Shown: piece after piece, positions 35,195 to 42,081 of the stretch
How the letters are laid out: each line of letters begins with the position of its first letter
Position numbering within the stretch: the stretch's first letter is position 1
Origin: Byssovorax sp.
GTDB lineage: Bacteria > Myxococcota_A > Polyangia > Polyangiales > Polyangiaceae
Direction of reading: 5' to 3'
Assembly: GCA_025362495.1 (NCBI GenBank)
Contig: JANYGI010000005.1
Span: 1-64,000, forward strand
DNA length: 64,000 nt
Position numbers and translations under genes: made by a program
Notes under the pieces: generated by a model
The model's input: the letters and a program-made list of their open reading frames with translations, nothing else
Databases searched by the model: none
What the model was told of the DNA's origin: nothing

Positions 35195-35848
35195 CTATTT
35201 CCCGGCGGCGGCAAACACGTTGATTGCCGTCGCCAGCAGCCAGTGCAGGAGCCATGCGCCCAGGAACGACTCGCCGCGCCAGGCGATCACCGCGAACAGC
35301 AGGCCTCCGCCGATCGACGCGAAGGCCTCGGGCTCCGACTTCGGATAATGAGCCATCACGAAGGGCAGGAGCTGCACGAAGATCGCCACCGATCCGAGGC
35401 GCCGGCCCAGGCCGAAGAGCAGAAAGCCGCGGAAGAAGAACTCCCACGCGAAGCAGTAGAGTCCCCAGCCGAGCGTCGTCGGGATCCAGAGCCACGGCTC
35501 GGTGAGCACGTAGCGGTACGTGGGATACGCGTCGCGGATGGCGGGGATCCGCGCGGCGAAGAAGGCGATTGGCAAGAGCCCGAGGGCGAGGACGCCGAGA
35601 TCGCGACCCCACACGCGAGCGTTGCCGAGGCGGAGGCCATAGGCGTGGAGGCGCTCGTGGAAGCCGCCACGGATCACCAGCGCGGGGACGACCAGGAGCG
35701 CGCCGACGTTGACGGCGAACCAGCCGAAGAGCTGCGCGCGCGGGCCCAGCGAGGGGACGTAGCCGTGAAAATGAACGACCGTGAGCAGCACCGCGGCACA
35801 GAGGAGAATGGACGCCTCGCGGACCGGATCGTCGATCGAGATCTTCAT
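35195..35848 (-). CDS. CPBP-family intramembrane metalloprotease-like protein
   Basis: 217 residues, start at MKISIDDPV. Six or more hydrophobic segments. The CPBP/Abi motifs are in a variant form: WEFFFRGFLLFGL (EExxxR type with Phe at the second position) and FVMAHYPKSEPEAFASIGGGLLFAVIAW containing the His of motif 2. The closing helix WLLHWLLATAINVF carries another His/Asn. CPBP proteins are CAAX-protease relatives; the substrate is unknown. It is divergent from the MFS gene; no ribosome-binding site decides the start beyond GGAG 8 nt upstream. Confidence 0.85.
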   Translation of the reverse strand: MKISIDDPVREASILLCAAVLLTVVHFHGYVPSLGPRAQLFGWFAVNVGALLVVPALVIRGGFHERLHAYGLRLGNARVWGRDLGVLALGLLPIAFFAARIPAIRDAYPTYRYVLTEPWLWIPTTLGWGLYCFAWEFFFRGFLLFGLGRRLGSVAIFVQLLPFVMAHYPKSEPEAFASIGGGLLFAVIAWRGESFLGAWLLHWLLATAINVFAAAGK

Positions 35849-35916
35849 GCTCGCGCTCCGATATACACCTGGACGCGCCGCGCCGCGGGCCACAGAGTGT
35901 CGGCCCCGAGCAAAGC

Positions 35917-37182
35917 ATGGATCACCCCAGAAGAAACGCGGCGGTCCCGTTCATCCTCGTGACTCTGCTCCTCGATACGCTCGGCATCGGCGTGATCGTA
36001 CCGGTGTTGCCCCGCCTGATCGGCAGCTTCCTCCAGGGCGATTTCGAGCGCGCGTCCGCGTATTACGGGGTGTTCATCGCGCTCTACGCGGCGATGCAGT
36101 TCTTCTTCGCGCCGATCCTCGGCGGGCTCAGCGATCGCTTCGGCAGGCGGCCGGTGATCCTCACCTCGCTCGCGGGCGCGGCGGTCGACTACCTCCTGCT
36201 CGCGTTCGCGCCGACGCTGCCATGGCTCTTCGCGGGGCGCGTCTTCTCGGGGATCACCGGCGCGAGCTTCTCCGCGGCCACGGCCTACATCGCCGACGTG
36301 ACGCCGGCGGAGAAGCGGGCGCAGAGCTTCGGGCTGATGGGCGCGGCGTTTGGGCTCGGGTTCATCCTCGGGCCGGCGATCGGCGGCGCGCTCGGCGGGA
36401 TCAGCCTGCGTCTGCCGTTCCTCGTCGCGGCCGGGCTCAACCTGCTGAACTTCGTCTATGGCAGCTTCGTCTTGCCGGAGTCGCTTGCGGCCCCGCACCG
36501 GCGGGCGTTCACGCTCCGTCGCGCCAACCCGCTCTCGGCGATGCGGAACCTCGGTCGCCATCCGGTGCTCTTCGGCCTGACTGCCACGCTGGTGTGCAGC
36601 TACCTCGCGCAGCAGATGCTCCAGACCATCTGGGCGCTCCACACCCAGGCTCGCTTCGGGTGGGAGCCGTACCAGATCGGCGCCTCGCTCGCGGTCGTCG
36701 GCATCTCGGCGGCGGTGGTGCAAGGCGGGTTGATTCGCCTGATCTTGCCGCGCCTGGGCGAGCGCCGCGCCCTGCTGCTGGGGCTCACCGTCAACATCCT
36801 CGGCTATCTGGCCCTCGGCGCCGCCACCCGCGGATGGATGATGTACGCCATCTGCGTGCCATTCGCCCTTGGCGGGCTGGCCGGGCCGGCGACGCAAGCC
36901 ATCCTCTCGCGCGAGGTCGGCCCGTCCGAGCAGGGCGAACTGCAAGGCTCGCTCAGCAGCCTGCAGAGCCTGACAGCCATCCTCGGGCCGCTGCTCGCCA
37001 CGGCGCTCTTCGCGCGATTCGCCGCGCCCACGGCCGTTCCCCACGTCCCCGGAGCCACGTTCTACGCGGCCGCGGCGTTCAACGTCGCCGGCATGCTGCT
37101 CGCGCTGCGCCTTTTCGCGAAGACGCCGCCGCGGCCCGTGACCGGCGCCGATACCGTACCTCCTGCCAGCGTCCCGCACTGA
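35917..37182 (+). CDS. MFS drug-efflux transporter, TetA-like
   Basis: 421 residues with twelve transmembrane segments. Diagnostic motifs are motif A in loop 2-3 ([14 protein letters not shown]), and in helix 5 [19 protein letters not shown] (motif C of antiporters), as in Tet(A)-class proteins. [18 protein letters not shown] at helix 1 is characteristic of the TCR/Tet family. It would export an unknown hydrophobic compound in exchange for protons. The next gene begins 13 bases after its stop, so the two may be co-transcribed. Confidence 0.9.
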
Positions 37183-37195
37183 CGCGCTACCGCCG

Positions 37196-37912
37196 ATGAT
37201 CCCCGAGATTCACGCGACCTCGATCCCGGTCGGGCCGATTGTCCTCCACCCGTTTGGCCTCCTCGTCGTGGCCGGGATCATCGTGGCGCACACGGCGCTC
37301 GTGCGCCGCGCGAGGGCGCGGGCCGTCGCGTCGGCGCGGGTGATCGAGGGTTTTGCGATCGCCCTGGGCGCGGGAGGTCTCCTGGTCTCGCTCATCGTCG
37401 ATCGCCTGGCTGGCTCGCTCGGCTCCTTGCCTGCCGCTTCTGGAGCCCTCGTGGCGGGCGCGATATACGGAGCGTCGTTTCGCCTCGATCTGCTCGAGCT
37501 CGGTGATCTCGCGGCCTGGGCGTTCCCGTTCGGCTGGGCCTTCGCGCGCCTCGGCTGCGCGCTCGTCCACGATCACCTCGGGCCCCTCTCGAGCTCGTGG
37601 CTCGCGGTGCGCTTCGCCGCGGGATCGCGGCTCGATCTGGGCCTGATCGAGTGGCTGCTCGTCCCGGTCCTGTTCGCTGCGGTGGAGATCGCGAGGCGCA
37701 CCCGCCGGCCCGGCGCCATGGCCGGGGCGCTGGCGTCGGTCTATGCGTTGATCCGGTTTCCCCTCGATTTCCTGCGTGAAAGCGACGCGCGCCTCGGCGG
37801 CCTCACCGCGGCGCAGTGGGGAACACTCCCCCTCTTCGCGGCGGGCGTCGTCCTGCTCGGGATCGTTTTCACCCGCGCGGCGCCGCCGACTCGGGTATCT
37901 CTCGAAGAATGA
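37196..37912 (+). CDS. Divergent prolipoprotein diacylglyceryl transferase (Lgt) paralogue
   Basis: 238 residues versus about 290 in Lgt, with about seven transmembrane segments. Lgt-like elements: HPFGLLVVAGIIV, FGWAFARLGCALVHDHLG (the Lgt signature RxGNFxNGExxG altered, with Arg kept but the Asn and catalytic-type Glu replaced) and DFLRESDARLGGLTAAQW (the C-terminal Arg/Glu motif kept). The His-Gly-Gly motif appears as ASGALVAG. It is probably a paralogue of altered activity or substrate. Its stop overlaps the next start (ATGA), coupling it to a lipoprotein gene. Confidence 0.75.
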   Translation: MIPEIHATSIPVGPIVLHPFGLLVVAGIIVAHTALVRRARARAVASARVIEGFAIALGAGGLLVSLIVDRLAGSLGSLPAASGALVAGAIYGASFRLDLLELGDLAAWAFPFGWAFARLGCALVHDHLGPLSSSWLAVRFAAGSRLDLGLIEWLLVPVLFAAVEIARRTRRPGAMAGALASVYALIRFPLDFLRESDARLGGLTAAQWGTLPLFAAGVVLLGIVFTRAAPPTRVSLEE

Positions 37913-39546
37913 TCCGATCTGCAATCGCGCTCTCGGCGGCCTCGCTCCTCTCGCTTCCCCTCCTCGCCGGATGCGGCACCGGGACGCTCGGCGGCGCCGA
38001 CACCACCAGCGCGAGCGCGACGACGGGCGCGGGCGGCGGGACGGGCGGAAACGGCGCCGGCAGCAGCGCCAGCGCGACGTCGTCGGGCGCCGGCGGACAC
38101 GGCGGCAGCGCGCCCACGATCCTGCCTTCACCGTTCGACTGGACGGGTATCGTGAGCACGGGACAGAGCCTGTCGGTCGGCGCCACGGGGACCCCCGTCG
38201 TGAGCGTCACCCAGCCGTACAAGAACCTGATGCTCTCCGATGCTTCCCCGGATCCCAAGTACGATGGCCAGGGCGACATGCTCTCGCTCGTCCCGCTCAC
38301 GGCGCCGATCCGGCCGCCCGCGGGCGGCGGGCCGGGCTATCCGAGCAACATCGCCGGAGAGACGCCGAGCGAGGGCACGTCCAACCAGATCTCGGCGCTC
38401 ACCCTCGCTCGCGGAGGCTTCGACACGGTGAGCGTCGCCTCCAACGTGGGTGAGTCGGGACAGAGCATCTCTGTGATCAAGAAGAACGGGACCGGCAAGG
38501 CTTATGCGGCGACGCTCTACGAGGGAGCCGCGATCAAGGCCCTCGCCGCGGCGCAGGGGAAGAGCTTCGGCTACGGCGCGATCCTGCTGACGCACGGCGA
38601 GACCGACGCCAACGACGCGAATTACGCCGCCGAGATAACCCAGCTCCAGGCGGATTACACTGCCGATTTGAAGGCCCTCACCGGACAGCAGCAAGACATT
38701 CCGATGCTGATCTCGCAGCAAGGCACCTTCCCCCTCGATGCCGGGAGCTTCGCGCAATCGACGCTGGCCGAGTGGCAGCTCGGGGTGACTCTGCCTGGCA
38801 AGTTCCTCTGCGTCGGGCCGAAGTACCAGTACGAATACTCCGGGGACAACGTCCACCTCCCCGCCCCGCAGTACCGGCGCCTCGGCGAGAAATACGGCGA
38901 GGTCTACGTCCGCGCGATCCTGATGAAGGAGCCGTGGGCCCCGCTCCAGCCGACTAGCGTGAGCCGCAGCGGCGCGGTGATCACCGTGGATTTCCACGTC
39001 CCCGATCCCCCGCTCGCCTGGGAAGACACGATGTCTCCGCCGCACCAGGAGATCACCAAGCAGTGGGCCGCCGGGAAGGGCTTCGAGGTCGCCGACTCGA
39101 CCGGTGCGCTCACCATCACGAGCGTGGCAATCACCGGGACCTCGGTGGCGATCACGCTCGCCGCGCCCCCAACGGGGCAGAATTTGACGCTGAGCTACGC
39201 GCTGATCCAGGACAAAGCCGGCTATTCGGGCGGCACCGACAACGGCCGTCGCGGGCAGCTCCGCGACTCGGACGCCTTCCTCGGCTACGACGCCGAGGCG
39301 ATCGCCTGCAACGTGCAGATGGGCTCGACCAGCGTCATCGCCGCGACCCCGGGTGGCCTCGCGGCGCGCAGCAGGACGGATGTCGTCACGGGCAGCAGCC
39401 TCGCCAAAGGAGCGGTGGTGATGGCCGACGCGGGCGATACACTGACGCTGAGCCAGCCGTGGACGGGCCCGAGCGGCGTCGTGATGCTGGGGTTCCACGC
39501 CGATCAGCGCAACTACGCGGTCCAGTTCTCGCTCCCGGTGCCCTGA
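37909..39546 (+). CDS. SGNH/sialate O-acetylesterase-like lipoprotein
   Basis: 545 residues. Lipobox LPLLAGC (Cys near 20) is followed by a Ser/Gly/Ala-rich linker (25-65). The SGNH-type hydrolase domain shows IVSTGQSLSVGA (nucleophile Ser in a GQS block), AILLTHGETDANDANYA (the block III-type segment with His and Asp) and YSGDNVHLPAPQY (catalytic Asp/His). This order matches DUF303/SASA carbohydrate acetylesterases. A C-terminal beta domain (about 345-545) may bind sugar. It is likely surface-exposed. Translation is coupled to the Lgt-like gene by ATGA. Confidence 0.82.
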   Translation: MIRSAIALSAASLLSLPLLAGCGTGTLGGADTTSASATTGAGGGTGGNGAGSSASATSSGAGGHGGSAPTILPSPFDWTGIVSTGQSLSVGATGTPVVSVTQPYKNLMLSDASPDPKYDGQGDMLSLVPLTAPIRPPAGGGPGYPSNIAGETPSEGTSNQISALTLARGGFDTVSVASNVGESGQSISVIKKNGTGKAYAATLYEGAAIKALAAAQGKSFGYGAILLTHGETDANDANYAAEITQLQADYTADLKALTGQQQDIPMLISQQGTFPLDAGSFAQSTLAEWQLGVTLPGKFLCVGPKYQYEYSGDNVHLPAPQYRRLGEKYGEVYVRAILMKEPWAPLQPTSVSRSGAVITVDFHVPDPPLAWEDTMSPPHQEITKQWAAGKGFEVADSTGALTITSVAITGTSVAITLAAPPTGQNLTLSYALIQDKAGYSGGTDNGRRGQLRDSDAFLGYDAEAIACNVQMGSTSVIAATPGGLAARSRTDVVTGSSLAKGAVVMADAGDTLTLSQPWTGPSGVVMLGFHADQRNYAVQFSLPVP

Positions 39547-39574: not shown

Positions 39575-39982
39575 ATGAAAGCTCACCTTCGCGTCGCCCG
39601 CGCCATGGACCACCTCGACGAGATCCTCCGCTTTTACCGCGACGGCCTCGGCTTCGAGGTCGTCGGCGAGTTCCACGATCACGAGGGCTTCGACGGCGTC
39701 ATGCTCGGCCACGCGGGGTTGCCGTATCACTTCGAATTCACGCGCGAGCGCGGGGCGACGGCCGGGCGCGCGCCGAACGCGGAGAATTTACTGGTGTTCT
39801 ATTTGCCGGAGGCAGCGGTGTGGCAGAGCGCGGTTGATCGGCTGGAAGCGCTGGGAGTCGCGGCGGTGAGGTCGCACAATCCTTACTGGGATCGCGCGGG
39901 GAAGACGTACGAAGACGCGGACGGGTATCGCGTGGTGCTGTGTCGGAACGGGTGGGAGAACAAGCCGGTCGCGGTGGGGTGA
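39575..39982 (+). CDS. VOC/glyoxalase-superfamily protein
   Basis: 135 residues, a single-chain vicinal-oxygen-chelate fold with two beta-alpha-beta-beta-beta modules: HLRVARAMDHLDEILRFYRDGLGFEVVGEF and NPYWDRAGKTYEDADGYRVVLC. Potential metal ligands are His near 4, His/Glu around FEFTRE and Glu in the second module. It resembles the YycE-like group of unknown function. The start has an excellent Shine-Dalgarno sequence (CTGGAGGATCG before ATG). Confidence 0.88.
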   Translation: MKAHLRVARAMDHLDEILRFYRDGLGFEVVGEFHDHEGFDGVMLGHAGLPYHFEFTRERGATAGRAPNAENLLVFYLPEAAVWQSAVDRLEALGVAAVRSHNPYWDRAGKTYEDADGYRVVLCRNGWENKPVAVG

Positions 39983-40378: not shown

Positions 40379-40792
40379 TCACGGCCACCCGAAGATCAGC
40401 GAGCAACAGAGCCCCAGCGACGCGCTCGTGAAGTTCACGGCGAGGGACCACAGCAACGCTCGACGCAGCCCGAACGCCCTCAGGTAGATTGCCTCGACGC
40501 CCACGGCAAAGCCCTCACAGCACGCCGCGAGCACGATCCACCGGAACGCCCCGCTCCAGACCAGGCCCATTCCCCGCTGCGCCATCCACGCAAAAAGCCT
40601 CTCCACCAGCGGTGGGATCACGAACGTCACCACAGGATGGGTGATCGCGCTCGCCCCGAACCCGATCGCCGCGGCGCGGACAAGCGAGGGCTTCACGGCG
40701 AGATGGCGCCGCAAGACAACCACGTAGAGCGGGATCTCCACGGTCTGGGTGAAGGCGAAGATCGCCGCCCACTGCAGGAGCGTCGCCCGCAT
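40379..40792 (-). CDS. Small polytopic membrane protein
   Basis: 137 residues with about four transmembrane helices: AAIFAFTQTVEIPLYVVVL, AAAIGFGASAITHPVVTFVI, FRWIVLAACCEGFAVGV and ALLWSLAVNFTSASLGLCC. No family name can be given. The His-Pro in helix 2 and the Glu-Gly in helix 3 are the polar features inside the membrane. The start lies seven bases after the stop of the larger membrane protein upstream, so they form an operon. Confidence 0.75.
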   Translation of the reverse strand: MRATLLQWAAIFAFTQTVEIPLYVVVLRRHLAVKPSLVRAAAIGFGASAITHPVVTFVIPPLVERLFAWMAQRGMGLVWSGAFRWIVLAACCEGFAVGVEAIYLRAFGLRRALLWSLAVNFTSASLGLCCSLIFGWP

Positions 40793-40799
40793 CAACCCA

Positions 40800-41870
40800 T
40801 CACGCGACGATGGCGGGTAGGGCGCGCGGTCGCCCGACTGGCACGCGCAGCCCCGATTCGGCCCAGAGCAGCGACGCCGCCACCAGCTCGAGATAGCCGT
40901 GGAAGAAGGCCAGATCGATGTACCGATCCCGCGCCTCGCCGATGCCGCGCCAGAACGCCCAGCACGCGAGGGCGAGCATGCCAATCAGCGCCAGCCACAG
41001 GATTACTCCGCCGACATCGACCCTGAGCGCGCGGAGGCTCTGCGCGAAGGAGCGCGGCGTCGGGCTGGGGCGATCGTCCTCGGGCATCAAGCGCAGCCAC
41101 ACGAGGTAGTGAGCCGACTGGCCGAAGGCGTAGAGCATGAAGAAGCGAGGCACGAGCGGGCCTGTGAGCACCGGGCTCGAGCTCCAGGCGAGGCGATGGA
41201 GATCGAGGCCAGTCCACGACGCACGGAGGCCGCCGGTGAGCGCGGGGATCACATCGACGCTGCCGGCGAGGATCAGCGCGCAGCCCGCGGCGAAGAGCGC
41301 GAGCGGCGCCCAGTGAAGCCTCGATTCGCGTCGACGCCACGCCCACCACAGGCCGACGCCGACGAGGTTGTGGAGGTGCACGAACGCGAGATCGGCCTTC
41401 CATCCGGCCCACTGCGCGAGCGCGAAGAGCGCGCCCACCACCGCGACGCCGAGCGCGCGCCGGGGCAGCGACGCCCGCGCGAGCATGAGCGCGACGACCG
41501 CGCCGGCGAGGGCGCCGCGCACCCCGAGGCCGAGCGCCCCGGCGATCACCGCGCCGCCGATCACCACCAGGATCCACGGCCGCCGGTGCAGCCGCGGGCG
41601 CGCCACGAGATAGCGTACATCCGACACGATGTGCGGGATGCCCCAGAGCAGCGGGCCAACCGCGATCACCCAGACTGGCAGCGCGCAGGCGGCGACGAAG
41701 GCCGAGGCGAGCACCAGCGACGCCACGATGGCCACGCGCGGCTCGCGCGCGACGACGAGGTGGCGCGCGCCGGGGATCAGCGTGAGCGTGCGGAGCAGGC
41801 GCGATCGCACGGCGTCGAGAGGCCTGATCAGGCCTCCGAGCGGCGGCGCGGCGATCGCCCAGAGGCCCAC
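40800..41870 (-). CDS. Polytopic membrane protein of unknown function
   Basis: 356 residues from a GTG four bases after the stop of the small upstream gene; longer in-frame extensions into that gene are unlikely because their composition is Arg/Pro junk. About nine transmembrane segments. Polar features in helices or loops: LLWGIPHIVSDVRYLVARPRLHRR, AFVHLHNLVGVGLWW, FMLYAFGQSAHYLVWLRLMPEDDRP, LAFFHGYLELVAASLLW. The recurring His in helices suggests a heme- or metal-handling or beta-carotene 15,15'-dioxygenase (Brp/Blh)-like fold; this is a guess. Confidence 0.75.
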   Translation of the reverse strand: MGLWAIAAPPLGGLIRPLDAVRSRLLRTLTLIPGARHLVVAREPRVAIVASLVLASAFVAACALPVWVIAVGPLLWGIPHIVSDVRYLVARPRLHRRPWILVVIGGAVIAGALGLGVRGALAGAVVALMLARASLPRRALGVAVVGALFALAQWAGWKADLAFVHLHNLVGVGLWWAWRRRESRLHWAPLALFAAGCALILAGSVDVIPALTGGLRASWTGLDLHRLAWSSSPVLTGPLVPRFFMLYAFGQSAHYLVWLRLMPEDDRPSPTPRSFAQSLRALRVDVGGVILWLALIGMLALACWAFWRGIGEARDRYIDLAFFHGYLELVAASLLWAESGLRVPVGRPRALPAIVA

Positions 41871-41874
41871 GCGC

Positions 41875-42081
41875 TCAGCCGGGCGGCGGGAGATTCTGGG
41901 GCGGCGTCGGCGGCGTGGGAGGCGTCGGCGCGACGGCGGACATCGTCGGCGCGACGGGAGGCACGGGATCAACCGGGCGCTTGGCGCCGCCGAGGCAAGC
42001 GTCTTTGCCGGCGAGCGCCGCGCCGACGAGAACGAACCAGCCATAGCGCGACGCGTTCCACCACGAAACATTGCGAGCCAT
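41875..42081 (-). CDS. Small membrane-anchored Pro-rich protein
   Basis: 68 residues, supported by AGGAGG nine bases before the ATG at 42081. One transmembrane stretch (YGWFVLVGAALAGKDACLGG) is followed by a periplasm- or cytoplasm-facing tail of Thr-Pro-Pro repeats. The following membrane-protein gene starts four bases after its stop. Upstream, a 22-codon frame at 42086-42154 (MDGPLSDLDAAQRPIDEALQ...) ends on top of the Shine-Dalgarno sequence and could be a leader peptide; there is no independent evidence for it. Confidence 0.65.
   Translation of the reverse strand: MARNVSWWNASRYGWFVLVGAALAGKDACLGGAKRPVDPVPPVAPTMSAVAPTPPTPPTPPQNLPPPG

Follow-up and report, generated by a model that had tools for sequence, protein, structure and literature searches.

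Does a short Lgt-like gene, the end of which overlaps the start of a lipoprotein gene, encode an enzyme devoted to that single lipoprotein? This question was raised by a locus in the 10.8-Mb genome of a Byssovorax sp., of which we analyzed one stretch of 64,000 nucleotides, referred to here as the window. An earlier note had described the two genes and proposed that they work as a pair; the short Lgt-like open reading frame (ORF) and the overlapping lipoprotein gene are indeed both present as described, including their coordinates and the shared ATGA (Table 1). The encoded proteins are referred to below as mini-Lgt and P0002.

Table 1. Features of the mini-Lgt locus (positions are those of the window)
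Feature	Coordinates	Strand	Remarks
Rce1-like (CPBP) intramembrane protease	35195..35893	-	Nearest relatives divergent beside mini-Lgt in six Polyangium genomes
MFS transporter gene	35917..37182	+	13-bp gap before mini-Lgt; unmatched in six Polyangium mini-Lgt loci
mini-Lgt (P0001, short Lgt-like protein)	37196..37912	+	ATG at 37196, stop ends at 37912; 238 aa; 7 predicted TM helices; arm-2 missing
ATGA start/stop overlap of the P0002 gene with the mini-Lgt gene	37909..37912	+	
P0002 lipoprotein, SASA/SGNH esterase-like domain	37909..39546	+	ATG at 37909, stop ends at 39546; 545 aa; lipobox LAGC
YycE-like glyoxalase/VOC protein gene	39575..39982	+	28 bp past P0002; unmatched in six Polyangium mini-Lgt loci
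Membrane protein, no Pfam match	40379..40984	-	Part matches a 131-aa protein near Polyangium mini-Lgt (35-38%)
Membrane protein, multi-TM, no Pfam match	40800..42071	-	55-58% identity to a 359-aa protein near Polyangium mini-Lgt

The earliest possible start of the P0002 reading frame in the ORF list is a GTG at 37816, which would yield 576 amino acids, but the later ATG was chosen since, as judged by eye, it opens the signal peptide MIRSAIALSAASLLSLPLLAGC; the lipoprotein signal and lipobox were likewise recognized by eye. The protein passed the SASA family threshold marginally (PF03629, 25.2 bits; cutoff, 24.8) and contains the blocks GQS (from residue 85), HGE (from residue 229), and DNVH (D-x-x-H, from residue 313), which we take to be SGNH blocks. 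Since the MFS, mini-Lgt, P0002, and VOC genes lie close together on one strand, they may form one operon, and P0002 is probably coexpressed with mini-Lgt.

Against the Pfam LGT family (PF01790), mini-Lgt scored 60.9 bits, above the gathering cutoff of 24.9, whereas against the NCBIfam equivalog TIGR00544 it scored 40.1 bits, below the cutoff of 118.9. Alignment with Escherichia coli Lgt (PDB 5azb/5azc; PMC4728403) identified equivalents of R143 (R118 in mini-Lgt), G154 (G129), E202 (E152), Y235 (Y183), R239 (R187), and R246 (R194), and R118 and R187 were invariant across both of our alignments, A1 and A2. Four other positions are changed, with Y26 corresponding to F20, N146 to C121, E151 to D126, and E243 to D191. 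Where the signature GRLGNFINGELWG would stand, mini-Lgt carries ARLGCALVHDHLG; the stretch A-R-L-G-C-A-L-V-H-D-H-L-G thus departs from the canonical G-R-L-G-N-F-I-N-G-E-L-W-G. The H103-G-G motif was not found in mini-Lgt: the alignment, ambiguous at H103, places L78-P-A there (A-S-G if shifted by hand), and the protein does not match the canonical H103GGL motif even when Y, W, or F is allowed in place of the histidine. By the same alignment, none of Y80, S101, F102, and H103 is kept, and arm-2, the stretch between TM2 and TM3 in E. coli Lgt, corresponds to a gap. The earlier note had seen a loss of both the His-Gly-Gly and the catalytic-type Glu signatures with retention of the Arg motifs; this holds for His-Gly-Gly and for the equivalents of Arg143 and Arg239, but the supposedly lost Glu is in fact an Asp.

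The predicted structure agrees with the gap in the alignment. An AlphaFold2 model built from alignment A2 (mean pLDDT, 94.0; pTM, 0.87) has seven long stretches of helix plus a head that is small and made up of short strands, and at the place where arm-2 would be, a helix spanning residues 47 to 72 is followed by another spanning residues 77 to 94. When this model was used as a Foldseek query, the sole match at an E value of ≤0.001 was 5azb (E = 4e-9), with which it superimposed at a Z score of 20.0 (2.7 Å over 226 residues; 25% identity in the structural alignment); the next row reached a Z score of 6.0. The predicted fold of mini-Lgt is therefore, according to this model, the seven-TM Lgt fold without arm-2 and with a smaller head region than that of E. 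coli Lgt.

The retained and missing parts fall on different sides of the mechanism outlined for E. coli Lgt. In the sections of PMC4728403 drawn on here, phosphatidylglycerol binds near R143 and R239, and the authors suggest that these arginines, together with E243, R246, and Y235, promote transfer to the cysteine of the acceptor; the acceptor peptide itself is proposed to be bound by the H103GGL motif, and no complementation is reported for H103A/N/Q/R/Y or for Y80F/Q, S101D, and F102A/W. According to the sections of PMC13251419 used here, Y26A and N146A did not complement either, E151A and E243A retained function in a strain lacking lpp, and substrate specificity is linked to arm-2, H103, and the head. 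The same sections describe species in which Y, W, or F takes the place of H103 and, among more distant Lgts, replacement of N146 by C and of E151 by C or D; mini-Lgt, with its Cys146 and Asp151, resembles the latter. By contrast, a Myxococcales-containing subgroup mentioned there lacks R143 and R239, both of which mini-Lgt keeps, and those sections mention no H-D-H motif and no Lgt lacking arm-2. That remark on Myxococcales apart, the literature matches listed contained no paper on a myxobacterial Lgt paralog or on an H-D-H motif in Lgt.

The source genome gave six matches to PF01790, which fall in five genes: mini-Lgt, C10, C11, C41, and C178 (two segments). The C178 gene comes after lspA, with overlapping frames, and is likely the housekeeping Lgt copy. 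The earlier note had taken mini-Lgt for a divergent paralog and suggested looking for a canonical lgt elsewhere in the genome; the four additional LGT genes, one of them adjoining lspA, bear out this view and rule out mini-Lgt as the genome's only lgt. When the four other Lgts were mapped on the E. coli protein, all had Tyr103 and Cys146, and position 151 was Cys in C178, C11, and C10 and Asp in C41. With His103 and Glu151 absent from all four, such losses are ordinary in this genome. Their TIGR00544 scores (97.1, 106.7, 55.0, and 71.6 bits) all lie under the cutoff of 118.9. The lspA-linked Lgt (L002:1444-3163), with Cys146, Cys151, and a score below that cutoff, may consequently be missed by automatic naming. 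Another paralog (L001:886-2418) is 510 amino acids long, with an N-terminal extension and a C-terminal tail that is acidic and then Lys/Ala rich.

On the basis of its signature region, mini-Lgt belongs to a branch that we call HDH-type (a name coined here), characterized by R-x-G-C-x3-H-D-H-x-G. H-D-H-x-G following R-x-G/A-C was present in mini-Lgt and in all 30 of its non-self BLAST relatives, which were not selected by motif. A wider scan retained 80 loci, in which the constancy of H-D-H is partly by construction, since one of the two search patterns and the extraction rule include part of the motif. The branch is mostly Myxococcota, with some loci labeled Acidobacteria, Verrucomicrobiales, or Proteobacteria. 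Alignment A2 drew on 55 of the 80 loci; its 56 sequences showed no variation at the positions equivalent to R143, C146, H-D-H, G154, Y235, R239, and R246 and almost none at D243. The branch also has full-length members, including C41 of the source genome (L003) and proteins of Sorangium, Minicystis, and Polyangium; these share with mini-Lgt not only the defining motif but also D-L-G-x-x-E, R-F-x-L-D-F-L-R, and G-L-T-x-x-Q. Unlike mini-Lgt, however, they keep arm-2 and S-S-F/Y-G-G; mini-Lgt has lost both and lies in a separate clade. At four loci (L065, L066, L071, and L074), a gene cluster recognized by eye as mreB-like lies near the HDH-type gene. One HDH-type Lgt (L127) comes from a record titled as a Klebsiella pneumoniae metagenome-assembled genome (MAG) and falls in the tree among MAGs of delta-proteobacteria and of unclassified proteobacteria; this record is probably a mislabeled bin.

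Lgts without arm-2 were also found in six Polyangium genomes (among them, P. fumosum DSM 14668 and Polyangium sp. 15x6 and 6x1), which are all genomes of that genus in the family set with a completeness of 95% or more. Short Lgts were thus found in 7 of 108 family genomes, these being the best-scoring genomes of the family search; arm-2 was checked outside the 61 of the 108 genomes that fell below E = 1e-20 and, for weaker matches, at fetched loci. The Polyangium proteins have the same short architecture as mini-Lgt but keep S-S-A-G-G, the G-G being lost in mini-Lgt alone; at position 103 the alignment shows Ala in the Polyangium proteins and Leu in mini-Lgt. A tree of 65 rows was built from 55 of the 80 loci (the other 25 being duplicates, over-long frames, or removed by thinning) and included four of the six Polyangium short proteins. 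In this tree, mini-Lgt joined these four (support, 98/90), the sister of this short clade was a full-length clade of seven proteins from Myxococcota-type MAGs (98/91), and the 12 rows together were supported at 100/100; C41 fell in another clade. For the 15 pairs of Polyangium short Lgts, dN/dS was 0.15 to 0.30 over the first 215 aligned columns, similar to the 0.12 to 0.32 of a neighboring membrane-protein gene. The Polyangium copies are under purifying selection; mini-Lgt itself is only 43 to 45% identical to the copies on which this was measured and has lost the G-G.

As for the proposed partner, relatives of P0002 at E = 1e-20 or better were found in 34 of the 108 family genomes, and the overlap with the seven genomes carrying a short Lgt consisted of the source genome only; at that threshold, none of the six Polyangium genomes with a short Lgt had a P0002 relative. 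Conversely, no Lgt relative was detected in 24 loci around P0002 relatives (approximately 1.5 kb on each side), and at least nine of these P0002 relatives have a lipobox of their own by a pattern rule, and others do by eye. The pair is thus not conserved across these genomes, and the earlier note's suggestion of an activity dedicated to one client does not survive the survey of co-occurrence that it had itself called for. A more general coupling of HDH-type Lgts with lipoprotein genes found no support either, as lipoprotein genes were not enriched downstream of the HDH-type gene in the 80 loci. At 20 of these loci, an ORF that starts directly after the Lgt gene was scored, and a number of these ORFs are probably spurious; one carried a lipobox by rule and two did by eye, the second being that at L138. 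Overall, 48 of 677 genes had a lipobox, but this baseline used a laxer choice of start, so that the comparison with the 20 ORFs is rough. The pairing of mini-Lgt and P0002 is local, with P0002 probably a lineage-specific neighbor, and the general pathway, on which the relatives of P0002 elsewhere must depend, would lipidate P0002 too.

A different set of neighbors is shared with Polyangium. At all six short-Lgt loci of that genus, a CPBP gene is adjacent and divergent, and two membrane-protein genes lie nearby; all three have homologs in the window (Table 1), the homologous part of the larger membrane protein spanning 40854 to 41861. No match to the MFS, SASA lipoprotein, or VOC gene was found at any of the six loci. 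Among the 108 genomes, those six Polyangium genomes contain the best relatives of the window's CPBP protein (E values of 1.9e-25 to 8.1e-30, with 1.0e-19 for the next), and relatives of the larger membrane protein occurred in 44 genomes, in 37 of which no short Lgt was detected. The conserved surroundings suggest a link between the CPBP protease and mini-Lgt, but since all seven genomes belong to two genera, this may be a single inherited linkage. The Rce1-like protease (with its counterparts at L064 and L099 to L103) is a better candidate partner than P0002.

Taken together, these data lead us to favor, with moderate confidence, the reading that mini-Lgt is a putative accessory, miniaturized prolipoprotein diacylglyceryl transferase paralog of the HDH type without a dedicated client. 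With the lipid side retained and the acceptor side lost, an accessory transferase that recognizes its acceptor differently seems the likeliest: mini-Lgt would still bind phosphatidylglycerol at the two arginines and transfer diacylglycerol to the cysteine of some prolipoprotein, with a changed or looser choice of acceptor, alongside the lspA-linked Lgt. The main rival, to which we assign a smaller but substantial probability, is an Lgt relative that has lost catalysis and is retained in the membrane to bind phospholipid or to act as a scaffold. With Y80, S101, F102, and H103 gone and Y26F and N146C in place, mini-Lgt could well be inactive and serve to bind lipid or as a scaffold; Leu at position 103 (Ala in the Polyangium proteins), the missing arm-2, and the essentiality of H103 and N146 reported in the E. 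coli work cited above point the same way, and, judging from the sequence, mini-Lgt may have a chaperone-like role without catalysis. However, mini-Lgt retains R143, Y235, R239, R246, and G154, which are likewise required in E. coli, the lspA-linked Lgt of the same genome likewise has Tyr103, Cys146, and Cys151, and the sections of PMC13251419 used here describe other Lgts in which H103, N146, and E151 are replaced. Outright decay into a pseudogene seems very unlikely: although mini-Lgt is shorter and more divergent than its relatives and alone has lost the G-G, its 238-codon frame is intact, the fold is confidently predicted, the polar network is conserved, and the Polyangium copies are under purifying selection.

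Two further readings look instead to the neighboring genes. That mini-Lgt and the Rce1-like protease act together in the Polyangium lineage as a small module for membrane modification is unlikely; the divergent, adjacent CPBP genes in the six genomes that also hold the best CPBP relatives argue for it, as does the occurrence of the flanking membrane-protein gene mostly in genomes without a detected mini-Lgt, but the linkage may have been inherited once, two further genes share the synteny, the MFS gene stands between the two in the window, and two full-length sister-clade loci that were inspected (L062 and L063) have other neighbors. Still less probable is that mini-Lgt modifies or chaperones P0002 only. 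The same-strand ATGA overlap fits such a pair, and given the specificity link described in the cited sections of PMC13251419, loss of arm-2 and HGGL could mean a narrower acceptor choice; yet the pair is confined to the source genome among 108, the lipobox of P0002 is ordinary, its relatives elsewhere are lipoproteins without mini-Lgt, and Polyangium has mini-Lgt without P0002.

A bolder extension of the accessory-transferase reading is that HDH-type Lgts are functionally distinct, having given up the acceptor-side His103 for a His-Asp-His cluster at the junction of TM4 and the head, and that proteins of the short clade, no longer constrained by arm-2 and HGGL, modify an unusual acceptor by using phosphatidylglycerol, with the nearby Rce1-like protease releasing or trimming that acceptor; we regard this as speculative and improbable. 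In keeping the lipid-handling arginines without arm-2 and HGGL, the short clade nevertheless offers a natural way to tell the parts of Lgt needed for the chemistry from those needed for acceptor choice. It also carries a warning for annotation: a myxobacterial PF01790 gene that adjoins a lipoprotein gene need not encode the enzyme for that lipoprotein, since each of the 61 most complete family genomes holds two to seven PF01790 match segments (counted as segments, not genes).
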